From assembly GCA_032622095.1 (NCBI GenBank), contig CP136064.1, forward strand, positions 259,573,863 to 259,637,862: a stretch of DNA of 64,000 bases, read 5' to 3'. The translations under genes were made by a program, and so were the position numbers. Source of the DNA: Siphonodentalium dalli. Lineage: Eukaryota; Mollusca; Scaphopoda; Gadilida; Siphonodentaliidae. A model generated the notes under the pieces. The model was not told the DNA's origin, did not search any database, and was given only the letters and a program-made list of their open reading frames with translations. Below, piece after piece: positions 50,201 through 63,138 of the stretch; positions within the stretch are counted from its first letter, which is position 1, and each line of letters starts with the position of its first letter.

Positions 50201-53200
50201 AAAAAGTATGCATTGTGTGGGAACTTGAAAGATAATCCAAAACTGGAGCGATCCATAGCGCTGTTTAATGGATTGTCACAATGGGTTCAATGTATGGTGC
50301 TCAGTAAAACCACGCCGGAACAGAGGTCAGACATCATCGTCAAGTTCATCAATGTATCTAAGGTGAGGCCACTGTCTGCTAATTTTCCCCTGGAAAAAAT
50401 TTCAGAGGAATCATCTGTGTCAAGCCTTGAAATCGTTTGTCTTGTCATTTGCAGAATGTAGCCACCAGAGCGTGAATTTATTGATTCTACCCTGCACAGT
50501 GGGCTACCACCACTAAACTCACCCTCTCATTCTGCTTAGGCCTCATCTTCTGGGAAGTATTTATCTATAGTAGCAAATTAACTTTGTTTTAGTTACTTTT
50601 TCCCTTCAATTCATTTTCTATATCCCCTAATTTGCAGCAGATAAAATGCATAATCGAGGTGACTAATGGGTGAACATCACCAACTTCAACTTAGGAACTT
50701 CAATCTGATCCTAGGTCTCCCATAGCAATTGAGGTTCCCAGAGGGTGAATTTGGTTATGCTAGCCCGCTGTGTGGGGTATCGTAAAAAAATCACCCTCTG
50801 CAAATGATAAACAAACTATTCAAGGCTTGATCAGTGTCCCAGATTGATTCCGGATAATATCTTCAGCAATAAATAATGGATTGTCTTCAAATTTTATATG
50901 TGTATTACCCACAGGTCAAGTTTAAATATGGTTGCAGTTTGTCAATTTCTATCAGAATTATGGCCCTTGTAGACTTATAATTTGCTGATTATTTTGGTTT
51001 ACAGATCACATGAAAATACAGGTCAAGTTCAAATTTCAATTTTGTTCACCCATTTTTAGCTCAACTTGACTAAGTCAAATTTAAGATATTTAGTCATTCA
51101 CTGTATACTGATAAATCCGATCGATGATCATACAGTGACTCCCTGTATACATATATACCCCCTAATGACAATACACCAACAGCAAAGATGCACATACATA
51201 CCATATACACCTATGATCACAATGACACATCATATATACCAACACGCTCGCCAATGACCATCCATCTATACATGTATGCATATACACTTCAACAATCATG
51301 ACCATACAGCCGTTCCATGTACACCAATAGTTTATTATACCCATAAGCATACAACCACTCCTTATTTATCCATACACCCCACCCATTTTCATACAACCAA
51401 CACATGTATACATATACACCCATCCATGACAATAAAGCCACCCAGTGTACACCTGCACATTCCACACATGATCATAAAGTCACTCCATATTGTTGTTGTC
51501 CGTCCATCCATCAAAAATGTTCATTATCACACCCTACATGTCATCCTATCATCACCAAAATTAATATGGATCTTCAAGGTGACCTCTTAATTGTAGCCTC
51601 CAATTTTTACCAAAATTCATTAAAAATCATGGCTGCCTGCAGCTATATTGGATTTCAAATTTGGATCTATTGGCACACTCTGCAGCCCGCATTTATTGCA
51701 GAATTGTTTTGAAAATTTACAGGCATGTTTAGGATCACCTCTAGATGAGAGCTATTGAATTTGAATGAATATCTATTAAAACATGGCCACCAGCAGCCAT
51801 CTTGGATTTTACTTTTTGTCTGACTAAATCCTTCGGCACACCCAACAGACGACATCTCTTATCCGATTGTCACCAGACTTCATATGGATATTCGGAGTGA
51901 CCACTAGATTGGAGCTATCAAACTTTTCTGAAATTTGTTGAAAATCACAAGCGGCCATCTTTGATTTTACTCTTTGCATGACTAAATCCTTCGGCACACT
52001 CTATAGGTCTCATTTCTCATACTGAATCCCAAACTTTGTATATCTCTTCACGTTGACATCTACATTACTTAGACATTTCAAGTTTCCGCTTTCCTAATTG
52101 CTCCATTGACTAACACATGAAATTATCCCCTCTCCAAGTTGAGCCACAGTGTTATTGACACCTTCATTTGGAAGATGTTTGAGGATAATTTGAATATTGA
52201 ATTGATGAGATACAGTTTGAGAATCCCACATATAATATGTTCTCTTGTTGTTTCAGAGACTGAGAAGCTTACAGAATTTTAATACTTTGATGGCCGTCGT
52301 GGGAGGCTTAACTCATAGCGCTCTGGCTCGATTGTATAAAACCAACGCTTGTATCCCGGTGGACTTCCAAAAAGTATGTATCTAGCAATTTACAAGCAGA
52401 TTACTACAAGTGACTACCTCCACCTCCATGAGTTAAGAAATGTGAATGAAACTTTTAAAAAATTGTAGTTATCACCTTGTTACGAAAATATTTTTGGTTC
52501 CCAGTCAGTAATTTGGACCAAAAAAAAATAAGAAATTTACTAAATTTTCGTTTAATTTCAGAAGAGTAATTTGTCTAAAAATTTCTAGTATAATCATCAG
52601 TTGTTCATGCCAAACAATTATTAGCTCAACTTTACTTTGTAAAGTTTGAGCTTTTGCCATGGGTTGGTATCATTATGAAATTTGTCATGGCTGTTGAAAT
52701 TGACATGTAGATGGGAACGAGTCATTCGGCAAAAAAACATGACTGCCAGCAGCCATCTTGGATTTCAATGTTCAATTCATTAGAACGGGCTAAAGGCTGG
52801 AGTGTTCATCTTGATTATCATGAAAATTGTTGTGGATGTTAATATTGACATGTCGTACCTTTGGTCGGATAATTATGAAATTTGTCATGGCTGTTGACGT
52901 TGACGTTTAGATGGGAATGAATCATTTTGGGGTCATTCGGCAAAAAACATGCCTGCCGGCATCTGATCATCACCAAACTTCATATGGATCATCGGGGTGA
53001 CCTCTAGATGGTAGCCATGACAGTTTCCTAATTTTGTTGAAAAACATGGCCACCAGTGGTCATCTTGGATTTGACTCTTTGTGTGACCATACAGGCCACC
53101 TCCCTCATCCAATCACCAAACTTCATATAACATTCAGGCTGACCTCTGGATAGGAGCCATCAATTTTTATGTTTACCCAACCATAGTATGGTAAACATAG

Positions 53201-56200
53201 TGTCATTGTCCGGATTGACCACTCGTCATTCGTCCGTCTGTCTGTCTGTCCGTAGACACTTTACGAGTAATGCGATAACTCAAACATTTTCTATCCGATC
53301 GGAACCAAATTTTGTATATGGGTTTCTCAGCACAAAATACAGATCGAGTTCGAATTTGGATTTGATCTGAGTTTTTGATACAGAGTTATGGCCCTTTTTT
53401 TACTTAGAATTCACGCATTCTGCCATAACTCAAACATTTTTTATCTGATTGGAACCAAATTTGGTATGTGAGTTTCACAGCCCAAAATACAGATCGAGTT
53501 CGAATATGGGTTTGATCTGATTTATTTTAAAGGAGTTATGACCCTTTTTCGAGAAAAAAATGGGGGAAAAGAATGATTTTTTTAGATTTTTTTTTAACTT
53601 TTATACATGTAATAATAATAATAAAAAAATGCCATTGATTCTTTCATTTGTTTTCATTTAGATATTGATGATTATGATACAAGTTGATAAAAAGGTTCCC
53701 AATGTGTCCCTTTAAATATTTAGTAATGAACCCATAAATTAATAGTGTTAAGGTGCCATTCCACCACCGAGCCGTTTTTGCATACAGCACAGATCCCCCA
53801 TTAATGTCAAGTAGCAGTTAAATAACAATTCCTCCTGATATCTGATAAAAAACACATGTGTAGTTCACAATATTGGAGTGTACTGCCACTGGTTAATAGA
53901 ATGTTATTTATTTGGTGATAGACTGTATCCCACAGACCAGTTAATTATGATGGACAATCTGTGAAAGATTTCCTGATAAAACAGTGCTTTTAAAAATTTG
54001 CTGGATGCTGCATTGCACAGCTGAATATATAACTCTACAGATGGTCTGAGGTCATTTTAAATGTTATTGCATTAATAGAGATACCAGCATCAATATAAAC
54101 AATGTCTGTGATTTGTTGACAGCTCTGCTATATAATTGATATTAATGGGTCAGCAGTGAGGTGTCTTTATTTTGATGCGTGTTGTTGGTAGAATTTGAGA
54201 TATTATCATTGTAAACTTAAATTGGACTCTCTTAACCCAAGTATTCCATGTCCAGGTCACCTTTTTCACATTTAACCCAAGGTTGTGGTGTTGCAGCATT
54301 ACAGATCCTGTACCAGTGCATTCTCTTATATAAATGCGAGTGACCCATAAATACCAATAATTTGTTTTATGTACATTTGTCTATAATAGTACATAACAGT
54401 ATACTCTATAATTCAACATCAAAACTCTCATTTATGATTCCGATCATAGTAATTTACTATCGCCAAGGGATGGGTTAACATCTGCCGATCATGATCGGCC
54501 TCTCGTTTCTGTAATTTGTAATAAAACATTGCCACTAGAATCCATCTTGGATTTCAAATTTGAATCTATCGGCACACCCTGCAGCCTGCATTGTTTAGAA
54601 TTTCATTAGAAAACATGGCCACCAGTGGCCATCTTGGATTTTATTTTCTATATGTCTCTTCATGTTGATATCTAGTATGCACAGACATTTCAATTTTCCG
54701 CATTTCCTAATCGCTCCATTAACTGTAACACATTAAATTATCCCTCTCCATGTACAGTGTGATTGACACTTTCATTGAAAGTTTTCATTAATTGTGAGTC
54801 CACATTGTGGTGTCATATGAGAATTATCTCGTAAACTTCATTGCGAAATTCTTCCATATGCTTAAATACATATTAATGATGATATTTATATGTTCGCCTG
54901 TTCACATATCCTTTCTTGGCTTTGATTTCAGGTTTTACAAGAATACACAGAACTGCTTTCCTCAGCAAATAATTTCAGTACTTACAGGAAAGTTTTCCAG
55001 CAGTGTACAGGCTTCAAGATTCCTATATTGTAAGTATTACAGCAGTGTACAGGCTTCAAGATTCCTATATTGTAAGTATTACAGCAGTGTACAGGCTTCA
55101 AGATTCCTATATTGTAAGTATTACAGCAGTGTACAGGCTTCAAGATTCCTATATTGTAAGTATTACAGCAGTGTACAGGCTTCAAGATTCCTATATTGTA
55201 AGTATTACAGCAGTGTACAGGCTTCAAGATTCCTATATTGTAAGTATTACAGCAGTGTACAGGCTTCAAGATTCCTATATTGTAAGTATTACAGCAGTGT
55301 ACAGGCTTCAAGATTCCTATATTGTAAGTGACTTCATATTTACATCATCTGTGATTTTACTGCTGATGCTGAATTACAAGCCAAATATCATTGAGGTATT
55401 CACATGGCACCCGTTACAGGTATTGTGACAAAAGCTTCAAATACAACAATACAGGGTGTCCACTAGGTGTTGGGGGAATGGTACCCCTATGGCTGCAGGG
55501 GGAAATCTCAGTCCGGAAAAACTGAAAATATCTACTAGTATTTAGGTACCGTAAACTTTGTGATAAAACATCAAGTTAAATTCGCGATACAATACGTATA
55601 CTGACAATTTTATTGTGCGCCACCAACAATGGTAGAGGAATTGTTAAAATTTGAAATTTATTTTGACATCTGACCACTACATTCATGTTATACCATGAAA
55701 TATTCCTGATCATTCTTCAGTGGCTAATATCTGGACCTCGTCTACATAATCATAAACGAAAACCAGTCAGAACAGTGTTAGTTGAGAATGTAATCGCGAT
55801 GTATGAAGACAGAATCAACCATGTGGCTTTTAGTGACGTCCACTCTGATAACTTTCAGAATATGGAAATAATAATTGTCAATGTGTGCAGCCCTGAAAAG
55901 CATTCGTTTCCTGCCAAATGGTTCTCTAGTGGTCAGCGTTAATGCATGGGCAAATAAAATTATCTTCGTTTATTACTCCCTGTTGGTTTTATTTAGTAGC
56001 AGATACACGCTTGTGTTGTAGACATTAATCTGTGGATCGGGTAGGAACATATTATGGAGGGGAAATTTGGGTGAGAAGAAGGGACCTTAAAAGTGACCTG
56101 CTGCGCCCATAGCGGAGACCCTGAATATAGTATTGTGCTGTAATTTGACATCGCATGGGATGTGTTTACTCGCCAGTTTCTATCATGTTCAAGTATTTTT

Positions 56201-59200
56201 GCAAAAACATTGTGTTCGCATCAAAATCTCTTCTTATTAAAAAGATTGAATATTAGCCTACATGGTGAATATTACCCTACATGGTTGAATATTACCCTAC
56301 ATGGTTGAATATTACCCTACATGGTTGATTGAATATTACCCTACATGGTTGATTGAATATTACCCTACATGGTTGAATATTACCCTACATGGTTGATTGA
56401 ATATTACCCTACATGGTTGAATATTACCCTACATGGTTGAATATTACCCTACATGGTTGATTGAATATTACCCTACATGGTTGAATATTACCCTACATGG
56501 TGAATATTACCCTACATGGTTGATTGAATATTACCCTACATGGTGAATATTACCCTACATGGTGAATATTACCCTACATGGTTGATTGAATATTACCCTA
56601 CATGGTTGATTGAATATTACCCTACATGGTTGATTGAATATTACCCTACATGGTTGATTGAATATTACCCTACATGGTTGATTGAATATTACCCTACATG
56701 GTTGGCACATGAATAATAAAACATGCAATCCATGAGGCTTAAAAATGACAGCACAGAAAAAGCTCCACTCGCAATGCTTGCATAACATGCAATGATATTA
56801 TACTTAACCCTTCCAAGACTGGAGCTTCCTGAAATTTTGCGAAAACCATGTGCCAATGCATTCTCTTATATATACGAGTTGCCATATTTAAGAGAATGCA
56901 TTGGCCTAACAAATTTTATATTATTTTTTATATTTGTTAAAGAATGTAAGGAAAGTGAAAAAAAAATTAAAAAAAATTGTTAAAGAATGTAATAAATAAT
57001 GATAAAAATGATTCAATTTGTTAAATAATGTAAGAAAAAATAATAAAAATTGATAAAGAATGTGAGAAAAAATGATTAAAAAAATGACAAAAATTGTTAA
57101 AGAATGTAAGAAAAATTGATAAAAAAGTTTGTTAGGCCAATGCATTCTCTTATATATGCCTTGCATATATAAGAGAATGCATTAGCCTGACAATATTTAT
57201 CTTGATCTTGTAAGCCAGTGCATTCTCTTATTTATGCGAGGCTCCCTATGGGAGACTTGGATATATAATAGAATGCACTGGCAACTGGCACAGGATCTTT
57301 AATGCTGCACCAGCACAGCTCCCGTCATGAAAGGGTTAAAAATATTTCATTGTAACTTGAGTTTTTGAAGCCTGAACACATTTAAACAGATGTTTTTTTT
57401 TATCATATTCATTAAAATTTAATTTATTCATTTCAGAGGAATTCATTTGAAAGATCTTGTGATAATGAACATTGCCTCTGAAGATCAAGTTGATGGTAAC
57501 CTAATAAACTTCCGAAAAATGGCGCAACTCTCCGGTGTTTTCGAGGAAATAATGAAACTACAGTTCAATGAAAGTATTCCAGTTCAAGCAAATAAAGACC
57601 TGATTAATACATTACGAGTAAGTAATATGCTCAATACAGCAAAACAGGTTATCAATCAAGACTGAGAATAAGGTGCCTCACATTTACAGAATGAGGTCCC
57701 CAGAGGGTGAATTTAGTGACGCTATCCCATATACCGGGCTAGTATCACTAAATTCACCCACTGGGGACCTCATTCTGCTTAGGCCCCATCTTCTCTGGAA
57801 AGTATTTTTATTATCAAATTAACAAGTGTTTTTGTTATTATAGAAACTTCTTCACAAAGATTCTTTTTCTTATTTAGTTTAGTTTCTCTATATTCCCGGG
57901 TATAACAGGTATTAACAATGAAATATATTCTCTGCACTGTTTTTTATTTCAATGTTATAAAATTCCCGTTCAGAACATCAAAAAGGTCCCAGGTTTTGAA
58001 CTGCTGGTGTATGATCTATAGGGGCGTAACCAGAATATAGATTCATGGCATTTTCTAATCCAATGAAACACTTAGGGTGAGATAATTTCTTTTTTTGTGT
58101 ACATATAAAAAAATGAATAATGTCACTTGGTTCAAGTAACTATGTATTAATAATATTCGAAGAAAACTGTCTCACCTTAGCCCATGTCTTGGAAACATGC
58201 AAAATAACTTGGGTTACCTCTTTTACATCTTTCATTAGACATTCGGTACACTGAAGACGACATCTATGAGTTATCTCTGCCTCTTTTACAGCTTTCATTA
58301 GACATTCGGTACACCGAGAACGACATCTATGAGTTATTTCTGCCTCTTTTACAGCTTTCATTAGACATTCGGTACACCGAGGACGACATCTATGAGTTAT
58401 TTCTGCCTCTTTTACAGCTTTCATTAGACATTCGGTACACTGAAGACGACATCTATGAGTTATCTTTGCCTCTTTTACAGCTTTCATTAGACATTCGGTA
58501 CACTGAAGACGACATCTATGAGTTATCTTTGCCTCTTTTACAGCTTTCATTAGACATTCGGTACACTGAAGACGACATCTATGAGTTATCTCTGCCTCTT
58601 TTACAGCTTTCGTTAGACATTCGGTACACTGAAGACGACATCTATGAGTTATCTCTGCCTCTTTTACAGCTTTCATTAGACATTCGGTACACCGAGGACG
58701 ACATCTATGAGTTATTTCTGCCTCTTTTACAGCTTTCATTAGACATTCGGTACACTGAAGACGACATCTATGAGTTATCTCTGCCTCTTTTACAGCTTTC
58801 ATTAGACATTCGGTACACTGAAGACGACATTTATGACTTATCTCTGCCTCTTTTACAGCTTTCGTTAGACATTCGGTACACCGATGATGACATATATGAG
58901 TTATCTCTGCCTCTTTTACAGCTTTCATTGGACATTCGGTACACCGAAGATGACATCTATGAGTTATCTCTGGGCAGAGAACCAAAAACCACAGCTATGG
59001 TGAGTATAAATTAACCATTAACCTTTTCATGACGGGAGCTGCGCTGGCGCAACATTAAGACCCTGTGCCAATGCATTCTCTTATATATGCGAGTCGACCA
59101 TATATAAGAGAATGCATTGTCCTAATAAATTTTTTTATCAATTTTTCTTTCATTCTTTAACAATTTCTGTCATTTTGTATAATTATTTCTTACATTCTTT

Positions 59201-62200
59201 ATCAATTTTTATAATTTTTTCTTACATTCTTTAACAATTTTTATCATTATTTCTTACATTCTTAAAAAAGTTTTATCATTTTATTCATTTTTTTCTTACG
59301 TTCTTTAACAATTATAAAAAATAATATAAAATTTGTTAGGCCAATGCATTCTCTTATATATGCGAGGCGACCTATGGTAGTGTTGCATATATAAGAGAAT
59401 TCATTGGCACAGGGTTTTCACAAATATTCAGGAACCTCTCGTCATGAAAGGGTTAACCATGAAGATTTTTCTTTAATCATGTTCATGATGGATTTATTAG
59501 GTATAGCAAATTTTTGTCTCTCAACTAAGATCAAGCTTTAAAAAAGGAAATATCATGTCTTTTCAGAAACTGCTTTTCTCTGTCTCAAAAAGTGTCGTCA
59601 CATAAGAAATGAACCAGAATGAACAGTGGTTTTATTGTCAATGTGGTATTTTGACCATGAGAAAAATTCAGCATACTTGAAGAACCCCGTTCCATGCTAT
59701 GTCATGATTGCATGATAGGCTGGACCTTTCAAAATTTCCAAACAGTAGGATTAATAACATAGGAGATATACGGTTATTATATGAGGGTGGACTTACTTTT
59801 TTTTTTAGGTATTTAATATCTACCTTCTAATAGGACAGTAAAAGGAGCCATTTTTAGAACAGGCGACCTGTGGAAATGTTTGGAAGAGAGATAACTCTAA
59901 CTTGTTAGCACCCTCCATCAATGCAAATGTCATTTAAAATCAAAGATTTTGCTCGGCTGCATCAGAATAAATCTATTTATTATGCATTTATTGACAAATA
60001 ATATGTACAATATTCGGTTTTATTCACAAAAATAGATATTTGTAGTCTTGAAGGGTTTTAAATAAAAATTATGTTATTGTAAATCTGGCCCGACAGAGAT
60101 ACACTATCTTTATAGATATTGACCTGAAATGAAGTTGGAATAAATATTGTTAATTATTGAACTTATTGGTGATATTGCAACCTTGAATGCTTTTATGAGG
60201 GAATTTATGAATGACAGACTATTTTATCTCACCATTCGTTACATCACTTCATTTTATTCCAGCCAACCACACCCACAAAACCAGTTGTGTTTGCTGATTG
60301 GCTAGCTGGAATTCGACCACCTGATCCAGACACAATAAACCAGCATGTCCATGATATGGTCGACGTGAGTAAATGGAGTATTCAAGAACCATGGCTTGAA
60401 ATAGTGTGTCTGTCATATGCAGAATGAGGTCCCCATGAGGGTGAATTTAGTGAAGCTACCCTGCAAAGTAGGCAAAATTCAACCTCTGGGGACCTCTGCT
60501 TCGGCCTCATCTGCTGGGAAGTATCTATAGTCTCAAATTAACATTGTTTTTAGTTACTTTTTTATATTTTATATGGGTGAACATCACAAACTTCAACTTG
60601 GGAACTTCAAATCTGATCCTAGGTCTCTCATAGCAGTTGAGGCCTCAGCAGATTAAAGTCCTCAGAGCGTGAATTTGGTGGGCTAGCGTCTCTAATTTCA
60701 CCCTCTGGGGACCTCATTATGCAATTTACAATCAAGGCTTGTCAAGAACATTTTATGTTATCTCTGGCAAAATCGGGGTACTCTTGAATTTTTTACCATT
60801 CTAGTTTTTGAATTATTTTTTACCAAGGTTCGATTTTTTTGTTTAGAAAAAAGGCAACCACCAAAGAAAACCGTCTTATTTCGGGGGATGTGTTGTCGGT
60901 GACCTTTTATTCTATTTTTTATTCAGAAATCGGTAAAGCCGGTAAATTTTTAGTGTCAATTTGTGTTTCAATGCCATAAATATTTTTATATCAGTCCGTT
61001 CTATTACTGCAGGCTGTTTTTAAGAACTATGACCATGATAGAGACGGCTTCATTTATATTAGCCATATGAGTCCATTCTATTACTGCAGGCTGTTTTTAA
61101 GAACTACGACCACGATAGAGACGGCTTCATTTCACACGAGGAGTTTGATCTGATCGCTGGAAACTTCCCATTTATTGACTCTTTCTGTGTCCTTGACACA
61201 AACCAGTAAGTATAATATCTTTATGTTTAATTGGACCACGAGCATTGCTCAGTTTCCACACATAGAATATAGTATGGAGAACTATTGCCATAATAGACAG
61301 GTTCAGCCGCATGTAAATGTAACTTGTAACATATGTGTTACTATGGTATTGCTATGAAGATGCACATGGTGGAAACAGTCACATGATTTCTTAGTGCCAA
61401 ACCTACACCTTTATAGATATCGGTCAATGTCTAAAGATGTAAGTAATGGTTGGGTGGATAAAATAAGATAAGTTTTATTGACAATCAGGTCACCTTCACA
61501 GGTAGAGTAATTTGGATAAACAACAAACAAACAAATAAACAGAACACATGAGAAAGTATTAAGTGATTGATGTTGATTGGTGAAATAAAGTGATACAACT
61601 TGCTTATTGTTCGTGTCCAGCTTAATGTTCAAGTCCAACAGTTATCTATATAGGATACGGCAATACAGCATTAACCCTTTGAGTGCCAGGGGCCGATATT
61701 ATCGGCCCTAAACCTACACAATAAGTCTGTTAAAGAATATAATAAAATATATTAAAATTGTAAAAAAAAAAATTAAAAAAAATTAAAATAAAAAAATTGT
61801 TAAGCCAATGCATTCTCTTATATATGCGAGGCGACCTATGGTCGACTCGCATATATAAGAGAATGCATTGGCACAGGGTATATGGGTTGATACAAAAATC
61901 GGACCTGGCACTCAAAGGGTTAATGGGCCTACATGGTACTATATCATAAGAGTTACATGAAAGATTGATATACCGGCTTCATATGCTGATGGTCACGGCC
62001 ATTTCCCAGCTGTTTTAAATTTTTCACACAGAAGTGAAATAAATGCTCTTTATTTCTACCATATCAGGAATATACTAACACAGAACGATCTTTTCTGTTC
62101 CATGTCGTGCATTTGGCTGTTGTAAAACAATGTGTTCAAGGTTGTATATTTTATAACTTCAATGCATGTTTCCAGTACATATAATGCGTAGTTCAAGGTA

Positions 62201-63138
62201 GTTCAAGTATTTATCGACCTATTTCAATACCGAGAACATTTCAAAAGCGAATATTATTACAGTAATGCCCTAAATAATCGACTCCTTAACCACAGCAGAA
62301 TTATGGGTAATTTTTCAGGATTTGGTCGGAAATATGGCTTGTTGCCATTCATCGGAAAGCTATCTCCGATGAATGGCAACAAGCCATATTTCCGACTAAA
62401 TCCTGAAAAATTTCCCATAATTCTGCTTTGGTTAACCCTTTACCCAACAAACCGGCCAAAACCGGCCAAATAAAGCTTCAACAGCCTAAAATATCTTCGG
62501 TCTGTCTCAATAGAACCATACAAATATGGATATCATTGGAACCGGCTCCTTGACCACATTGTGATAGTTACAGTTAGCCCTGTGCCAATGCATTCTCTTA
62601 TATATGCGAGTCGACCATAGGTCGCCTCGCATATATAAGAGAATGCATTGGCCTAAAAAAAATCTTTTTTTAACACTTTTTACCATTTTTTCTTACATTC
62701 TTTAACAATTTTATAATTTTTAATGTGTTAAGCCAATGCATTCTCTTATATATGCGAGGCGACCTATGGTCGACTCGCATATATAAGAGAATGCATTGGC
62801 ACAGGGCCATTCTGTTGGGTAAAGGGTTAAGGAGTTGATTATTTAGGGCATTACTGTAGGTTAGTTTGGATTGCAAACGGCCATGTGGCTTTAATTATTC
62901 CTCTTTGCTACAAGTTTATACTGCACCTTGGACACAAAATTTGAAAATAAATTATCCAAATTATTATTTTGTTCACAAATATTTATGATTTGTTTTCAGA
63001 GATGGTGTCATAAGTAAAAAGGAGATGAAAGAGTACTTCATCCGAGCCAATTCTCATGCCTTACGAAACAGCTTCAAACATGACTTTCATGAAATCACAT
63101 ACTTCAAACCAACGTTCTGTATTCACTGTACTGGCCTG
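23146..63138 (+). CDS. RASGRP: RasGRP-like Ras/Rap guanine-nucleotide exchange factor gene, partial (12 exons seen)
   Basis: Twelve exons joined by GT-AG introns give about 1466 coding nt (about 488 codons) with all eleven junction phases consistent. Domain order is REM (exons 1-3), CDC25/RasGEF (exons 4-9), a Pro/Thr-containing linker, two EF-hand loops (exons 11-12), and the start of a C1 domain with the H-x12-C-x2-C spacing (exon 12). This order is specific to the RasGRP/CalDAG-GEF family, which exchanges GDP for GTP on Ras or Rap at membranes in response to diacylglycerol and calcium. Diagnostic stretches include [24 protein letters not shown] and [12 protein letters not shown]. The start codon, first exon(s) and promoter were not found, and the gene continues past 63138. 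Three exon borders carry tandem duplications of the splice site. Paralogue assignment (RASGRP1-4) is not attempted because invertebrates usually have one gene. Confidence 0.95.
23818..23853 (+). CDS. RASGRP: RasGRP predicted 36-nt microexon, REM domain
   Basis: The exon lies between the acceptor TTTGAG| and the donor CAG|GTATCG. Joined to its neighbours it reads S(split)[12 protein letters not shown](split), so the chain runs [18 protein letters not shown] then FWISKFP. With it, 20 residues separate the LY of the previous exon from FW of the next, the same number as between LY/IY and YW in vertebrate RASGRP1 and RASGRP2 as I recall them. Without it the gap is 8 residues. The pattern KLRVIRFW also fits the REM helix preceding the conserved W. 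Both phases match exactly (AG|T and AG|G). This is an inference from spacing and phase; transcript evidence would settle it. Confidence 0.68.
23854..24350. mobile_element. Intron with family A MITE (about 23951-24327)
   Basis: GCCTGTCATTTGCAGAATGA to AATGACAGGCACATAATCTC then AGGCTC. Long subfamily with TTGCAGAGAAGATGAGGCCT inside. Confidence 0.82.
24338..24384 (-). other. tRNA-like 5' half (A-box), possible SINE remnant
   Basis: On the minus strand CCCTGATAGCTCAGTCGGTA AGGTGCATAGTGGGC fits a tRNA acceptor and D arm, with the A-box TAGCTCAGTCGG. There is no B-box GGTTCGAATCC downstream; the sequence runs into the end of a family A element. Not an intact tRNA. Confidence 0.4.
24592..25106. 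mobile_element. Family F MITE with nested family D
   Basis: The left end CACCCTTTCATGCTGGGAGG (TTAA decayed to TTCA) and the right end CAGTCATGGAAGGGTTAA. Split at its internal GCATTAA site by the D copy. Confidence 0.88.
24630..24911. mobile_element. Family D MITE nested in F, core partly deleted
   Basis: TTAACCCTTTACCCAACAGA to GTTGGGTAAAGGGTTAA. The two hairpins are fused after deletion of the AT spacer. Confidence 0.92.
25151..25200. mobile_element. Family C, 50-bp miniature of the termini only
   Basis: CAGTAATGCTCTAAATAATC then GACTTCTTAACCTTATTTAG and AGCATTACTG. The whole interior is lost. Confidence 0.88.
25265..25525. mobile_element. Family E MITE with one shared core hairpin
   Basis: TTAAAGACCCTTTGAGTGCC to CCTGGCACTCAAAGGGTTAA. 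The core occupies 25317-25386. Confidence 0.9.
25803..26042. mobile_element. Family A MITE (short subfamily) with 8-bp target duplication
   Basis: CAAGCCTTGAAATAGGGTGT to CACTATTTCAAGGCTTG. Flanks AATGACCT (25795-25802 and 26043-26050). Confidence 0.93.
26223..26380. mobile_element. Family A MITE, right part missing
   Basis: CAAGCCTCGAAATATTGTGT to CTCATTCTGCTTAGGCTATG, then ends in AGATTGAATTTATAACCCCA. Confidence 0.78.
26381..26637. repeat. Type-H dispersed repeat
   Basis: GCCGGGTATACGGGATTACA, GTCCATCCGTCCGTCCGTCC and ATATCGATGAAATTTGGTAT. No coding. Confidence 0.7.
26638..26896. repeat. 26-bp minisatellite, about 10 copies
   Basis: The unit ATGGGGGTATCCCAGCACCC GTCACC contains CCATGG. 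26 is not divisible by three and all forward frames stay open, so the overlapping open frames here are not genes. Confidence 0.96.
26995..27066. repeat. 14-bp tandem repeat, about 5 copies
   Basis: Unit TTTACATCTACTAA, in intron. Confidence 0.9.
27109..27369. mobile_element. Family E MITE with one shared core hairpin
   Basis: TTAACCCTTTCAGTGCCAGG to CCTGGCACTGAAAGGGTTAA. Core at 27250-27317 next to an AT-rich spacer. Confidence 0.92.
27679..28250. repeat. Element L, copy 1
   Basis: A hairpin of GTCCAGGTTGTGGTGAAAAG and its complement around 27775, then TTTATCCAAATTTTGGGAAT to GTGTTAGTTAAGGGATGG. Copy 2 lies at 36016-36569. Confidence 0.88.
28338..28502. mobile_element. Family C MITE, shortened loop
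   Basis: CAGTAATGCCATAAGTAATC to TAGGGCATTAATG, with arms meeting at GGCTTGTTGCC. Confidence 0.9.
28511..28760. repeat. 48-bp tandem repeat (4 copies) within element J
   Basis: The unit ACAGAACGATTCCTATTCAT TGGTGGGAAGTGTTCAGATAATAAG is repeated, then GGTCGTTTGTTGAACTTATT continues as the J palindrome. Confidence 0.9.
28761..29100. other. AT-rich intron, nothing recognised
   Basis: No repeat family or frame identified. Confidence 0.4.
29103..29420. repeat. Type-H dispersed repeat with poly-G/C head
   Basis: TTATTATACCCCTGCAACGA GCTGTGG plus a G run to 29144, then GGACACAATTTTGTCCGAGC and TTGCACAGATATTTAGTACC. Same order as 7961-8460. Confidence 0.82.
29528..29682. mobile_element. Family C MITE, shortened loop
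   Basis: CAGTAATGTCCTAAATAATC to TAGGACATTACTG. The matched C-to-T change in both ends (GTCC / GGAC) shows arm homogenisation. Confidence 0.9.
29855..30244. mobile_element. Family D MITE
   Basis: TTAACCCTTTACCCAACAGA with the unique part on the left, GTTGGGTAAAGGGTTAA at the right. Cores at 30010-30075 and 30146-30212. Confidence 0.93.
30245..30594. other. AT-rich intron between two D copies, nothing recognised
   Basis: No repeat family identified. Confidence 0.4.
30595..30994. mobile_element. Family D MITE
   Basis: Same orientation as 29855, 740 bp away and very similar. TTAA at both ends. Confidence 0.93.
30995..31486. other. Intron end before RasGRP exon
   Basis: AT-rich. TAGTAATATTTTAGTAATAT is a short simple repeat at 31379-31400, and ATTTTTTTCACA / TGTGAAAAAAAT form a small inverted repeat near 31270-31310. 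Confidence 0.5.
31487..31624 (+). CDS. RASGRP: RasGRP exon: end of REM domain
   Basis: The acceptor is GCTTTTATTTTAG before 31487. The exon completes an Arg codon (AG|G), reads 45 codons starting [20 protein letters not shown] and ending VIDRELTK, and leaves GT of a split Val codon. The donor AGT|GTAAGT gives the best consensus; GTGTAA two bases upstream is worse and out of phase. FWISKFP is the RasGRP YWISEFP motif that ends the REM helical bundle. A hAT-like MITE (family A) begins 107 bp after the donor, inside a copy of element B. Confidence 0.93.
31690..32424. mobile_element. Element B interrupted by family A
   Basis: GGAACCAGCCTAGACTTGGG CGTCATCTTCTC before A. TTTCTCCCTAAATTGTGCCA through TAATGGGCTCTTGTGTTGCA and TAATACTTATTGGATCATAG after. 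Confidence 0.82.
31731..32166. mobile_element. Family A MITE, long subfamily, nested in B
   Basis: CAAGTCTGAGTTTAGTGTGC to CTAAACTCAGGCTTG. Flanks ATCTTCTC / ATTTTTCTC are nearly matching. Confidence 0.9.
32425..32851. mobile_element. Family F MITE with long spacer
   Basis: TTAACCCTTTCAGCTGATGC to AATCATGAAAGGGTTAA. Between the two cores the spacer has tandem TTTCTTACATTCTTTAACAA units. It keeps the uninterrupted phrase GCAGCATTAAAGACCCTG. Confidence 0.92.
32852..33612. other. Intron; GC-richer unassigned stretch at 33230-33550
   Basis: 33271-33546 is open on the minus strand (91 codons, no family recognised) with higher GC than its surroundings. CCTACTGTGAAT/ATTCACAGTAGG is a short palindrome at 33511-33535. 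Could be an unrecognised repeat; not called as a gene. Confidence 0.35.
33613..33690. repeat. 26-bp tandem repeat, 3 copies
   Basis: Unit GTGGGTTGTAGGAGAGGGCT AACAGC, identical copies. Confidence 0.95.
33835..34076. mobile_element. Family A MITE (short subfamily) with 8-bp target duplication
   Basis: CATGCCTTGAAATAGTGTGT to ACTATTTCAAGGCTTG. Flanks AATAAGTG (33827-33834) and AATAAGTT (34077-34084). Confidence 0.9.
34113..34372. mobile_element. Family F MITE, degraded
   Basis: TTAACCCTTCCATGACCGGA to CTTCGCTCCCATCATGAA (right TTAA lost). Several core remnants between. Confidence 0.78.
34373..35580. other. Intron; one foldback at 34855-34985, otherwise unrecognised
   Basis: GAATCTTTTATCGAATGAGT TGCGG and its inverse CCGCAACGAGTCCGATAAAA GATTC flank a loop with TTTCGCGAGAGCG / CTCGAGCGAAA. 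The rest shows no known family. Confidence 0.6.
35678..35887. mobile_element. Family C MITE nested in B
   Basis: CAGTAATGCCCTAAATAATC to GGGCATTACTG with TA flanks (CCAAG-TA, TA-GAAGTGAC). Confidence 0.92.
36016..36569. repeat. Element L, copy 2, nested in B
   Basis: Same sequence as 27679-28250. Flanks GTTGCATAAT and ATAATACTTATTGG rejoin to B, implying an ATAAT duplication. Confidence 0.88.
36647..36736. repeat. 21-bp tandem repeat, about 4-5 copies, at the end of B
   Basis: Unit ATAACATTCCACTTCTCCCT G. Confidence 0.93.
36928..37097. repeat. 43-bp tandem repeat, 4 copies
   Basis: Unit ACATGGTTTGCAACACGTCC AATGGTTTAACAAATATTAT TAC. Confidence 0.94.
37195..37332. mobile_element. Family C MITE with internal deletion
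   Basis: CAGTAATGCCCTAATTAATC, complete left arm to GGAAAGCTCTG, then CTGTGGTTAAGGAGTCAATT. Confidence 0.87.
37366..37716. repeat. 33-bp minisatellite, about 10 copies, in a type-H context
   Basis: Unit GTGTCGACGTCCGGATTGAC TTATATACATATA. Preceded by ACCATACCATTGTATGGTAC, as at 53170. Open in several frames because 33 is divisible by three. Confidence 0.95.
37763..38162. mobile_element. Family D MITE
   Basis: TTAACCCTTTACCCAACAGA to GGTTTGTTGGGTAAAGGGTTAA without length loss. Cores at 37793-37862 and 37940-38010. Confidence 0.93.
38246..38782. repeat. Element K, copy 2
   Basis: CAGGGTCAGCGCTGGACCGA to GGCAAGTGGCAGCTCGAACC CTG. The outer CAGGGT / ACCCTG are inverted. Confidence 0.85.
39025..40448. 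mobile_element. Family A MITE with a nested 960-bp type-H element
   Basis: CAAGTCTGAGTTTAGTGTGC to CTAAACTCAGGCTTG. Interrupted between GATTCTATTGCTTTTTAT and TTTAGTTTCTCTATATCCCT. Confidence 0.87.
39230..40193. repeat. Type-H element with about 170-bp internal repeats
   Basis: ACGCCCTTTTGAAAAAAAGG, GTCCGTCCGTCCGTCCGGGC, then TTGTCCGGATGATAACTTTA at about 39309, 39482, 39830 and 40000 (a diverged one near 39655). Ends GAGGGCGTATATTGCACGCC CAGCGTAGCTCTTG. Confidence 0.85.
40620..40871. mobile_element. Family A MITE (short subfamily)
   Basis: CAAGCCTTGAAATAGTGTCT to ACTATTTCAAGGCTTG, two hairpins; target duplication not evident. Confidence 0.9.
41817..43172 (-). pseudogene. LINE ORF2 C-terminal part (thumb region and zinc-knuckle-like end)
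   Basis: This is the same frame as the RT fragment, after the internal TGA. It starts [20 protein letters not shown], the usual post-RT motif, and includes [12 protein letters not shown] and GGLKMVN. Near the end a [18 protein letters not shown] segment matches the Cys/His zf-RVT region of L1- and CR1-type elements. It stops at 41817-41819 after ALNKQAT. About 360 bp of 3' UTR follows before the poly-A. Confidence 0.88.
43173..44107 (-). pseudogene. LINE ORF2 reverse transcriptase, N-terminal fragment
   Basis: Reading from 44100 down, the frame contains [19 protein letters not shown], then [45 protein letters not shown] and [10 protein letters not shown]. These are the ordered RT blocks, with the catalytic YADD box and the DFEKAFDSV box intact. 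The frame is open from the 5' truncation to a TGA at 43173-43175, where related elements have Trp in a W-K-x-R-x-L-T-x-x-GR motif. The same frame continues downstream, so this is a single nonsense change and not a frameshift. The copy is dead through truncation as well. Confidence 0.9.
44475..44770. mobile_element. Family A MITE, left end missing
   Basis: TAGGATCAGATTGAAGTTCC, GAAGATGAAGCCTAAGCAGA and GCAAATGTCAGACACACTAC. Confidence 0.75.
44821..45019. repeat. 25-bp tandem repeat, 8 copies
   Basis: Unit ACAGCCACACACCGTTAATC CGTTG. Confidence 0.95.
45095..45738 (+). mobile_element. 3' end of a second LINE, with (TCCTA)n tail next to a RasGRP acceptor
   Basis: The + frame reads [20 protein letters not shown], continues through [20 protein letters not shown], and ends at a stop at 45286-45288 after a CKNRRCPDC-like Cys cluster. 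FPLIWNSLE followed by FQKRMK resembles the C-terminus of many LINE ORF2 proteins. About 420 bp of AT-rich UTR ends with AATAAAATTATCCTATCCTA, typical of LINEs with short tandem 3' tails. The last repeat lies 15 bp before the acceptor AG at 45749-45750. The clade is not determined. Confidence 0.5.
45751..45904 (+). CDS. RASGRP: RasGRP exon: REM-CDC25 linker and start of CDC25 domain
   Basis: The acceptor is TTCATATGTAG before 45751. One base completes Val, then 51 codons follow, from TTKDWKWNQ to YKAIRRIN, ending in phase 0 at the donor [29 protein letters not shown] matches the RasGRP sequence in which leucine-rich residues start the catalytic CDC25 domain (family: KRKVSLLFDHLEP-ELSEHL). The acceptor region directly abuts a (TCCTA)n-tailed LINE 3' end, so the branch-point region may be transposon-derived. 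Confidence 0.95.
45905..46345. other. Intron start, unrecognised
   Basis: Includes GATGAATTTAGTGTCGCTAT CCTGCACAGTG (46098), a trace of a family A hairpin. No frame with similarity. Confidence 0.45.
46346..46805. mobile_element. Family G MITE, copy 2
   Basis: TGTGACCCGCCATATCAAAT to ATTTGATATGGCGGGTCACA. Same internal order as 18107 with a small tandem duplication of ATATAGAAG at 46564. Confidence 0.92.
46806..47096. mobile_element. Family A MITE, left end missing, abutting G
   Basis: TATGGGAGACCTAGAATCAG to ACTATATCCAGGCTTG. Confidence 0.75.
47276..47813. repeat. Element K, copy 3 (inverse orientation)
   Basis: GCGCTGCCACTTGCCAAATT TGCC to GGTCCACCGCGGACCCTG. A strong foldback GCCAAATTCTTTTAGAATTG at 47693-47770. 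Confidence 0.85.
48040..48293. mobile_element. Family A MITE (short subfamily) with 8-bp target duplication
   Basis: CAAGCCTTGAAATAGCGTGT to ACTATTTCAAGGCTTG. Flanks GCTGTTAG (48032-48039, 48294-48301). Confidence 0.94.
48428..48893. mobile_element. Family A MITE, long subfamily
   Basis: CAAGTCTGAGTTTAGAGTGC to GCACTAAACTGAGGCGTG. Confidence 0.87.
49033..49219. mobile_element. Family A fragment followed by element J
   Basis: GGACATTTGCAGAATGAGGT to ATCTGTTTAGGCCTCGTCTC, then GGTGGGAAATGTTCAAATAA of J, interrupted by the C copy. Confidence 0.72.
49220..49432. mobile_element. Family C MITE nested in J
   Basis: CAGTAATTCCCTAAGTAATC to TAGGGCATTACTG. Full arms around GATCTCGACGAGAGC. Confidence 0.9.
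49433..50188. other. Intron end before RasGRP exon; old tandem
   Basis: AATAAAGGCTCCCGAATGGA and AATAAAGGCTCCCGAATTAA (49542, 49763) lie in two diverged copies of about 220 bp. A GTGTGTGTGT run lies near 50060. Confidence 0.55.
50189..50362 (+). CDS. RASGRP: RasGRP exon: CDC25 catalytic domain
   Basis: The exon has 58 codons and both borders are phase 0. The acceptor is CCTTTTTTTCCAG; the donor is AAG|GTGAGG. It starts [11 protein letters not shown], and [18 protein letters not shown] is the conserved CDC25 block around the family sequence ERSIALxNxxSQWVQ. [16 protein letters not shown] continues the helix used in Ras contact. No repeat duplication is seen at either border. Upstream (about 50050-50095) is a GT-rich low-complexity run, and a family A MITE starts 58 bp after the donor. 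Confidence 0.96.
50421..50829. mobile_element. Family A MITE with near-identical 8-bp flanks
   Basis: CAAGCCTTGAAATCGTTTGT to ACTATTCAAGGCTTG. Flanks ATCTGTGT (50413-50420) and ATCAGTGT (50830-50837). Confidence 0.87.
50838..52256. repeat. Intron: type-H trace, CA/AT-rich stretch, element M
   Basis: 50860-51060 type-H-like (CACAGGTCAAGTTTAAATAT). 51110-51480 is rich in ACACCCATCC and CATACACC phrases. From 51590, degenerate units with CATGGCCACCAGCAGCCATC and AAATCCTTCGGCACACTC. Confidence 0.65.
52257..52373 (+). CDS. RASGRP: RasGRP exon: CDC25 domain, NFNTLMAV motif
   Basis: The exon has 39 codons, phase 0 at both ends. The acceptor is TTGTTGTTTCAG, the donor AAA|GTATGT. It starts [28 protein letters not shown] is a signature of CDC25 RasGEF domains, forming helices next to the helical hairpin. 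The preceding junction VSK|RLRSLQ aligns without gap to VAQ-KLHQLQ of vertebrate RasGRP. The flanking introns are filled with a diverged dispersed repeat recognisable by CATGGCCACCAG and CATCTTGGATTT. Confidence 0.95.
52374..53164. repeat. Intron: element M continued
   Basis: AACATGACTGCCAGCAGCCA TCTTGGATTT, AACTTCATATGGATCATCGG and GTGACCTCTAGATGG recur at 51730, 51880, 52740 and 52960. Confidence 0.65.
53165..53600. repeat. Type-H dispersed repeat
   Basis: TTTACCCAACCATAGTATGG, CGTCCGTCTGTCTGTCTGTC CG, and two diverged GGAACCAAATTTGGTATGTG units. Confidence 0.75.
53601..54931. other. Intron before RasGRP exon; short element M and core traces
   Basis: CCAGTGCATTCTCTTATATA at 54313 is a lone core arm; CATGGCCACCAGTGGCCATC at 54615 is M. 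The rest is unrecognised. Confidence 0.5.
54932..55029 (+). CDS. RASGRP: RasGRP exon: CDC25 helical-hairpin region; its 3' end is tandemly duplicated
   Basis: The acceptor is TTTGATTTCAG before 54932. It reads 32 codons, [15 protein letters not shown] through [14 protein letters not shown], then TT of a split Leu codon completed by the exon at 57437 (TT|A). The family equivalent is E-x-TELLSSSxNYxxYRR....C-x-FKIPILG. The last 32 nt of the exon plus 10 nt of intron are repeated eight times. Only the first donor (GTAAGT at 55030) keeps the protein frame: reading past it gives TTG TAA, so every later donor adds a stop codon. The end was set on that basis. Confidence 0.93.
54998..55329 (+). repeat. 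RASGRP: Eightfold 42-bp tandem array of a 5' splice site with the exon end
   Basis: Eight copies at exactly 42-bp spacing. Each is 32 nt of exon (CAGCAGTGTACAGG...CCTATATT) followed by GTAAGTATTA of the intron. The donors stand at 55030, 55072, 55114, 55156, 55198, 55240, 55282 and 55324, and every one is the strong consensus GTAAGT. The copies appear identical by eye apart from the last intron tail, so the expansion is recent or homogenised. The array is open in a non-RasGRP frame (14-residue repeat), which I treat as incidental. Confidence 0.97.
55334..56257. other. Intron, unrecognised
   Basis: 55685-55942 is open for 85 codons on the + strand (contains [17 protein letters not shown]) with no family I recognise and no splice or repeat context. 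Left uncalled. Confidence 0.4.
56258..56704. repeat. 19-24 bp minisatellite, about 20 copies
   Basis: Unit AATATTACCCTACATGGTTG with an optional ATTG insertion, giving two interspersed unit lengths. Confidence 0.95.
56804..57339. mobile_element. Family F MITE with expanded spacer
   Basis: TTAACCCTTCCAAGACTGGA to CCCGTCATGAAAGGGTTAA. The spacer holds repeated TTGTTAAAGAATGTAAGAAA units. It ends about 97 bp before a RasGRP exon. Confidence 0.9.
57437..57617 (+). CDS. RASGRP: RasGRP exon: end of CDC25 core (GIHLKDL)
   Basis: The acceptor is TTCATTTCAG. The first base completes Leu, then 60 codons run from [10 protein letters not shown] to [11 protein letters not shown], ending in phase 0 at the donor CGA|GTAAGT. 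IPIL-GIHLKDL is the CDC25 motif usually written P-x-LG-x-x-L-x-DL. [12 protein letters not shown] matches the RasGRP stretch P-x-ANKDL-x-LL. The middle ([14 protein letters not shown]) is variable in the family. A truncated family A repeat starts about 40 bp after the donor. Confidence 0.95.
57657..57900. mobile_element. Family A MITE, right end missing
   Basis: CAAGACTGAGAATAAGGTGC to TTTCTCTATATTCCCGGG. Confidence 0.75.
58217..58972 (+). repeat. RASGRP: Twelvefold 63-bp tandem array of a 3' splice site with the exon start
   Basis: The array is 12 x 63 = 756 bp with no indels. Each unit is the intron end CCTCTTTTACAG plus 51 nt of exon. Exon-like starts fall at 58229 + 63n, up to 58922. Copy 1 has ACAT instead of ACAG, so it lacks an AG. 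The other 11 keep it. Copies differ by substitutions, mostly T/C and A/G in the [12 protein letters not shown] segment (for example ENDIYEL in copy 2, TDDDIYEL in copy 11). All are open in the RasGRP frame with no stop. The minus strand of the array also reads open as a Cys-rich repeat, judged a shadow. Confidence 0.97.
58922..58999 (+). CDS. RASGRP: RasGRP exon: CDC25 domain end; shortest form of an exon with an arrayed 3' splice site
   Basis: The minimal exon has 26 codons, phase 0: [17 protein letters not shown] then GREPKTTAM, ending at the donor ATG|GTGAGT. The family sequence is [21 protein letters not shown], so the last copy alone gives a protein of normal length. Upstream, 11 further copies of the first 51 nt (each with 12 nt of intron, CCTCTTTTACAG) stand at 63-bp steps. 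Ten of them have an intact AG, and all read open in this frame. Use of an upstream acceptor would therefore insert 21-residue repeats rather than break the protein. If splicing takes the first good AG after the branch point (58292), the exon would be 708 nt and add 210 residues. A TTAA-type MITE starts 18 bp after the donor. Confidence 0.9.
59018..59456. mobile_element. Family F MITE 18 bp after a RasGRP donor
   Basis: TTAACCTTTTCATGACGGGA to CTCGTCATGAAAGGGTTAA. Cores at 59066-59120 and 59338-59408, with an ATTCTTTAACAATTT-rich spacer. Confidence 0.92.
59457..60262. other. Intron, unrecognised
   Basis: AT-rich with a T run near 59802. No repeat family identified. Confidence 0.4.
60263..60364 (+). 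CDS. RASGRP: RasGRP exon: linker between CDC25 and EF-hands
   Basis: The exon has 34 codons, phase 0. The acceptor is TTCATTTTATTCCAG, the donor GAC|GTGAGT. It reads [20 protein letters not shown] followed by [14 protein letters not shown]. The vertebrate equivalent is LTPSKPPVVVDWASGV..KPDPKTISKHVQRMVD, the linker that packs between the catalytic and EF modules. A family A MITE with a perfect 8-bp target duplication starts 25 bp after the donor. Confidence 0.95.
60390..60741. mobile_element. Family A MITE with 8-bp target duplication, 25 bp after a RasGRP donor
   Basis: CATGGCTTGAAATAGTGTGT to AATCAAGGCTTG. Flanks TCAAGAAC (60382-60389, 60742-60749). Confidence 0.92.
61000..61143 (+). repeat. 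RASGRP: 77-bp tandem duplication of the EF-hand exon 3' splice site
   Basis: The sequence CTATTACTGCAG followed by about 40 nt of the EF-hand exon occurs twice, with exon-like starts at 61013 and 61090. The two copies differ at a few positions (TAT/TAC, CAT/CAC, GATAGAGACGG shared). The upstream copy runs into ATATTAGCCATATGAGTCC before the second acceptor. 77 is not a multiple of three. Confidence 0.93.
61090..61205 (+). CDS. RASGRP: RasGRP exon: EF-hand 1 and first residues of EF-hand 2
   Basis: The acceptor CTATTACTGCAG is the downstream one of a duplicated pair. It reads 38 codons, [20 protein letters not shown] through [13 protein letters not shown], and ends in CA of a split Gln codon before GTAAGT. 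The EF loop [12 protein letters not shown] has D at 1, 3 and 5, G at 6, I at 8 and E at 12, so it looks calcium-competent. The upstream acceptor at 61013 would also give [13 protein letters not shown], but the 77-bp offset shifts frame and reaches a TGA soon after, so 61090 is chosen. Confidence 0.94.
61206..61670. other. Intron, unrecognised
   Basis: AACAAACAAACAAATAAAC at 61522 is simple sequence. No family match. Confidence 0.4.
61671..61923. mobile_element. Family E MITE with one core hairpin
   Basis: TTAACCCTTTGAGTGCCAGG to CCTGGCACTCAAAGGGTTAA. Core at 61804-61871. Confidence 0.92.
62260..62856. mobile_element. Family C MITE split by a family D insertion
   Basis: CAGTAATGCCCTAAATAATC to CTGCTTTG-GTTAA, then after D: GGAGTTGATTATTTAGGGCA TTACTG. 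Confidence 0.94.
62432..62830. mobile_element. Family D MITE nested in C, TTAA duplicated
   Basis: TTAACCCTTTACCCAACAAA to GTTGGGTAAAGGGTTAA. Removing it plus one TTAA restores the C phrase GGTTAAGGAGT. Confidence 0.95.
63000..63138 (+). CDS. RASGRP: RasGRP exon: EF-hand 2 and start of C1 domain
   Basis: The acceptor is GATTTGTTTTCAG. One base completes Gln, then 46 codons run [20 protein letters not shown] to [12 protein letters not shown], phase 0 at CTG|GTATGT. The second EF loop is [12 protein letters not shown], split by the intron, with D1, N3, D5, G6, I8 and E12 intact. The last part, [17 protein letters not shown], has the C1 spacing H-x12-C-x2-C, the diacylglycerol/phorbol-binding zinc finger. 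The remaining C1 zinc ligands must lie beyond the window. Human RasGRP1 has the equivalent ETTYLKPTFCDNC. Confidence 0.94.

Follow-up and report, generated by a model that had tools for sequence, protein, structure and literature searches.

A minisatellite that repeats the 3′ end of an intron together with the 5′ end of the following exon 12 times is found in a RasGRP gene of the scaphopod Siphonodentalium dalli. It is probably a mirage minisatellite, spliced mainly to its last copy. The class assignment is structural and, as far as the published mirage cases, which are those of amphioxus, can serve for comparison, it follows from three features: the 63-bp unit spans an intron/exon boundary, 11 of 12 units carry the acceptor AG, and copy 12 gives the conserved protein. 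The window referred to below is the whole stretch of 64,000 nt that was analyzed. The features of the RasGRP gene in it are as follows.

54932..55029, + strand: preceding RasGRP exon (VLQEYTELL...CTGFKIPIL), from the joined reading frame and Pfam
54990..55329, + strand: donor-edge array of exon 54932-55029, 42 bp x 8.1, with an in-frame TAA per unit, from TRF and reading
57437..57617, + strand: upstream RasGRP exon (GIHLKDL...NKDLINTLR), donor gtaagt, from PDB alignment and the joined frame
58217..58972, + strand: array of 12 units x 63 bp (12 intron + 51 exon bases), from TRF and unit-by-unit reading
58217..58279, + strand: copy 1, acceptor AG changed to AT, from unit-by-unit reading
58280..58909, + strand: copies 2-11, each with an intact phase 0 acceptor, from unit-by-unit reading and splice-site context
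58922..58999, + strand: authentic RasGRP exon, starting within copy 12, from unit reading, PDB alignment and the joined frame
60263..60364, + strand: following exon, containing VVFADW of the CDC25-EF linker, from the joined frame, motif matched by eye
60988..61132, + strand: 77 bp x 1.9 duplication at the acceptor edge of the EF-hand exon, shifts the frame, from TRF and reading
61090..61205, + strand: EF-hand exon with the exon-adjacent acceptor, from the joined frame and Pfam
63000..63138, + strand: exon with the end of the second EF hand (Pfam) and the start of C1-like sequence (by eye only)

Positions 58217-58972 form one TRF array with a period of 63, 12.0 copies, 95% matches, 0% indels and a score of 1344. 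Read unit by unit, all 12 copies are exactly 63 bp in length, each with 12 intron bases that end in an acceptor and 51 exon bases that represent the start of the RasGRP exon. The opening 12 bases, CCTCTTTTACAG, are invariant across copies 2-12, and copy 1 ends in ACAT instead; many but not all units (11/12) thus keep the AG and carry a splice signal. The RasGRP frame is free of stops in 12/12 units, stops are present in both other frames, and an in-frame TAA is situated directly upstream of copy 1. The first base of exon 57437-57617 finishes a codon split over the preceding intron, and its final codon is complete (CGA, followed by gtaagt). Thus every acceptor step from copy 2 to copy 12 is in phase 0, and these acceptors correspond to 10 to 0 extra blocks of 21 residues. 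A previous sequence-only reading of this DNA had described the 12 exact units, the 11 acceptors with the loss in copy 1, the open phase 0 frame and the in-frame protein with 0-10 extra blocks from any of the 11 acceptors, and on these points it was accurate.

Copies 1-12 differ from the unit consensus at 1, 4, 3, 1, 1, 0, 1, 3, 0, 2, 5 and 3 positions, respectively. In mirages the inner units are homogenised and the cluster edges are left out of this process; here private changes are common to copies 11 and 12, but copies 2, 3 and 8, which have a Ser-to-Phe change in common, diverge as much, and copy 1 differs only in its AG. The invariance of the intron bases is not significant, as 1 of 13 distinct changes falls in the 12 intron bases (P(≤1) 0.26). 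The 0% indels were also considered as a special mark of the array and rejected, since other arrays in the window equal it, e.g., one of 28 bp x 23.7 at 87% matches. A search of the genome (2.23 Gb, 9 contigs) with 126 array bases gave 6 matches among the best candidates, all within the array, and because these best candidates alone were scored the search does not prove that the 63-bp array is unique.

One reading frame joins the exons at 54932-55029, 57437-57617, 58922-58999, 60263-60364, 61090-61205 and 63000-63138, and two more RasGEF exons are found near 50225 and 52230. Pfam matches over the cut-off are the RasGEF end and EF-hand; on the short piece supplied there was no Pfam C1 match, and the C1 start was called by eye. 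The domain order, RasGEF, EF hands and C1 (the last by eye), is collinear with human RasGRP members. The copy-12 isoform matches the PDB entries for RASGRP1 (4l9m, E 4.8e-16), RASGRP2 (6axf, 1.1e-13) and RASGRP4 (6axg, 1.3e-13), and the alignments with all three human proteins have no gap at the exon junction. Because of this collinearity and the gap-free junction, the copy-12 isoform is taken as the ancestral product. The Pfam RasGEF and EF-hand matches and the PDB alignments also confirm the earlier identification of the host gene as RasGRP.

The array had been assigned to an exon of the CDC25 domain. This exon is indeed one of RasGRP, but it lies beyond the Pfam RasGEF profile match, and the placement is refined to the C-terminal end of the catalytic domain and not its core. 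Extra units would be insertions between the end of the Pfam match and the CDC25-EF linker. In RasGRP1 this linker is described as autoinhibitory, blocking the Ras site, and VVFADW is present here at the matching position, by eye against the RasGRP1 residues named in the same source (PMC3728621). Two predictions for the longer product carry little information. AlphaFold without an alignment, run on 240 residues of 58280-58999, gave strands only (mean pLDDT 67.1, pTM 0.56), which is too weak, and a Pfam search of the long isoform detected no family, with a query that was without the preceding RasGEF exons and hence uninformative.

The same gene has arrays at two more exon edges, so that three RasGRP edges in the window are affected (63 x 12, 42 x 8 and 77 x 2). 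The 42-bp donor array at 54990-55329 has 99% matches. The 77-bp step duplicates the EF-hand acceptor and about 44 exon bases, and use of the upstream acceptor would shift the frame. The EF-hand intron therefore has two near-identical acceptors, of which only the exon-adjacent one gives an open protein.

To obtain a base rate, 83 exon loci from this genome (L007-L089) were examined with TRF. They were chosen as best family matches and consist of 23 RasGEF (two of them in this gene), 30 myosin head and 30 kinesin loci; the figure of 83 overstates independence, as many myosin loci match the same domain stretch and look like paralogues. On contig C4, a single stretch of the muscle-type myosin head is matched many times at ~158-291 Mb, several of the matches being clustered. 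A myosin exon compared with the PDB gave scallop entries first, closely followed by human cardiac myosin, and a GFP family search of the genome gave 0 matches, an outcome that does not show the family to be absent. A repeat of period ≥10 is present within 100 nt of the match in 10/83 loci. In eight of these 83 loci (L009, L010, L014, L016, L021, L036, L038 and L089) the array spans the exon end and the donor, and L042 and L069 have repeats near or within the match that were not assigned to an exon edge. When the pairs L009/L010, L014/L016 and L036/L038 are collapsed, five distinct edges are left, all with donor arrays. Thus the 77-bp duplication in the RasGRP gene is the sole acceptor comparison.

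Three of the surveyed loci have further peculiarities. In L016 (1539-2440; paralogue L014) a RasGEF exon tail and its donor are repeated at least 6 times, with telomere-like CCCTAA runs between several units. In L009 (1704-1980; paralogue L010) the RasGEF tail WINIAE and its donor are present in four copies separated by CTATA runs, the second of them 63 nt on. L021 (1074-1555), in a minus-strand gene, has a RasGEF exon end (AEVLAHFIKIAR followed by GTATGT) with a donor array of 53 bp x 9.

Repeats of period ≥10 make up 17.2% of the window. Palindromes based on CAATGCATTCTCTTATATATGC also recur in the introns, by eye, at 57140-57290, 59070-59120, 59338-59415, 61800-61875, 62585-62660 and 62730-62810, and palindromic elements based on CAGAATGAGGTCCCC are found, likewise by eye, at 57690-57780 and 60420-60500; both are possibly miniature transposons. 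In the survey, exon edges are not enriched in repeats: coverage by those of period ≥20 drops from 11.9% at 1-1.5 kb to 4-5% in the first 100 nt beyond the match edge, and is 2.1% deep within the match. A special targeting of exon edges was rejected on this profile, and edges are simply less strictly spared by repeats than exon interiors.

Only one of the eight edge arrays (three in this gene and five elsewhere), that of 63 bp, stays in frame and free of stops at each step. In L009 this holds for the first step only, which would add 21 residues; a stop follows at the donor in the 42-bp array, L016 and L089, and the frame is shifted in the 77-bp duplication, L038 and L021. An in-frame open acceptor array is expected now and then by chance, since the best period is divisible by 3 in 18 of the 43 merged arrays of the window and just four codons of the unit are intronic. 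The 63-bp array had previously been considered very unusual. With two further edge arrays in the gene, five more distinct edges among 83 loci and the published amphioxus mirages, that view is not supported.

In amphioxus, mirages are described in Adh3, the globins BflGb6 and BflGb9, troponin C and PGBD5, and perhaps in VCBP3, whose introns contain partial exon copies with splice sites (PMC3087553, PMC3902484, PMC2632668). Like the 63-bp array, they are minisatellite-like and tandemly duplicate an intron/exon boundary along with its splice signal; they occur at either exon edge, and their additional copies are, as here, on the intron side. BflGb6 duplicates the 3′ end of an intron and the 5′ part of the exon, the layout of the array described here; its units, however, are 150-160 bp in 3 or 6 copies, as compared with 12 units that are in frame and open at each step (PMC3087553). 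PGBD5 has units of 60 and 108 bp, each a multiple of 3. One gene model had taken two 108-bp units as an exon that added 57 residues, and was rejected by the authors because transcript support was lacking (PMC3902484). For amphioxus Huntingtin, the passages concerned mention tandem repeats but not an exon-edge array (PMC2206037).

The mirage reading is supported by the further arrays of the same kind in the gene and genome, by the collinearity of the copy-12 product and by the BflGb6 layout. The origin of the array would be a tandem duplication of the 5′ edge of the RasGRP exon with 12 intron bases, and ordinary repeat turnover would account for its subsequent growth. The extra copies would be placed on the intron side, and copy 12, joined to the exon body, would preserve the ancestral gene structure. 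The spliceosome would mainly take the acceptor before 58922 and handle the upstream copies as intron, and any longer proteins made from the upstream acceptors would be a minor fraction. The open frame may then be a by-product of the 63-bp period and the stop-free 12-base intron piece.

Apart from the fact that the survey turned up donor arrays only, two observations weaken the mirage reading. The first is that the 11 live acceptors have equal pyrimidine content (0.82, -20 to -4) and near-identical context. Thus nearby sequence favors none of them, copy 12 included, and splicing mainly to copy 12 is less secure. The possibility should be considered that several of the 11 acceptors, equal as they are and all in frame and open, are spliced appreciably, giving an unregulated ladder of 0-10 blocks with no selected role. 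Human UBC offers a parallel, in that splicing within a tandem array produces a ladder of ubiquitin numbers for which regulation was reportedly not detected (PMC10809524), and alternative transcripts are reported to be common at human exon-intron boundary repeats (PMC2812944). Against such stochastic use, splicing is reportedly unaffected by the mirages in Adh3, troponin C and the globins (PMC3087553, PMC3902484), and the authors read their RT-PCR results and those for Adh3 as a sign that splicing proceeds undisturbed (PMC3087553). In addition, the EF-hand pair would imply a preference for the exon-adjacent acceptor in this very gene. On balance an unselected ladder is possible but rather unlikely; appreciable use of upstream acceptors, however it might come about, would in our judgement be a serious minority prospect. 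The suggestion of the sequence-only reading, marked there as an inference, that the acceptors serve to vary protein length is not supported, because the EF-hand pair needs its exon-adjacent acceptor and amphioxus mirages are reportedly spliced regularly (PMC3087553).

The human systems differ from the 63-bp array in several respects. UBC resembles it in that every unit of a tandem array has its own in-frame splice site, by which splicing can set the repeat number. However, the UBC sites are both donor and acceptor, so that inner units can be removed or kept, and the isoforms were demonstrated by RT-PCR (PMC10809524). The 63-bp unit has an acceptor but no good donor, as its GTs at unit positions 30 and 54 are in poor donor context, and its boundaries are not usable as both donor and acceptor in the manner of UBC. 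Variable internal tandem repeats (VITRs) of human segmental duplications include exon-intron boundary repeats that alter splicing and protein length, but, unlike the array here, these are in recent paralogues, have transcript support and mainly concern new-intron formation (PMC2812944). Tandem alternative splice sites (TASS) are similar in providing several alternative acceptors for one exon; they differ as closely spaced sites catalogued in human tissues, apparently with no minisatellite (PMC8055015). The literature among the matches listed contains exon-edge minisatellites in amphioxus and boundary repeats in human duplications, and no in-frame acceptor array of this kind was found there.

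The second observation that weakens the mirage reading is an excess of silent and third-position changes over all changes, as expected if the copies are translated. Twelve distinct changes relative to the unit consensus fall in the exonic part, 9/12 at the third codon position (p 0.004) and 8/12 silent (p 0.0015-0.012, depending on the assumed transition bias). When changes seen in copy 12 are dropped, 6/9 are at the third position (p 0.042) and 5/9 are silent (p 0.034-0.11); when those seen in copies 11 or 12 are dropped, the values are 3/6 (p 0.32) and 3/6 (p 0.14-0.28), respectively. In the L016 donor array the extra copies come after a donor stop and are untranslatable; of the changes there, 7/10 are at the third position and 8/10 are silent (six extra copies compared without gaps; a shortened copy was excluded). 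Thus such an excess arises without translation of the copies. The silent excess was rejected as evidence for translation, being lost without the changes of copies 11 and 12 and matched by L016, in a test that is low in power and compatible with weak selection on the copies. The simplest cause would be that silent changes arise in the authentic exon, which is under selection, and that copies of it enter the array on separate occasions.

These results also bear on a selected role, in which acceptor choice would fix the distance to the autoinhibitory CDC25-EF linker that follows, and thereby tune Ras exchange. The insertion point is suggestive, situated between the CDC25 domain and the linker reported to block the Ras site in RasGRP1 (PMC3728621), with VVFADW present here by eye, and the overall silent excess is in the same direction. 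But that excess is gone from changes outside copies 11 and 12 and is present in an untranslatable array, copies 2, 3 and 8 have the Ser-to-Phe change in common, and chance yields open in-frame arrays now and then. A tuning device of this kind is very unlikely, and a selected role of any description is in our judgement highly improbable. That the array or its copy number is an assembly artefact is also very unlikely, for although tandem arrays are hard to assemble and an amphioxus draft mirage was misassembled (PMC3087553), internal variants distinguish the units and like arrays are found at unrelated exons, paralogue pairs included.

As a mirage minisatellite, the 63-bp array would belong to a kind already published from amphioxus, and it stands out by a frame that stays open through ten additional units. 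This makes the mirage question testable, i.e., whether duplicated splice sites are used and can lengthen proteins. As all 11 acceptors are in frame, alternative transcripts need have no early stops and would appear as a ladder, and the same gene supplies two built-in controls, an array with stops and an array that shifts the frame. A working acceptor ladder, in itself improbable, would provide RasGRP with 0-10 blocks before the autoinhibitory linker and, as arrays of this type readily change in length, with heritable differences in length range between individuals, by which neutral repeats could lead to graded variation in Ras signalling. More generally, the edge arrays in 8/83 loci (five distinct edges) suggest that in this genome exon borders are continually probed by tandem duplication.
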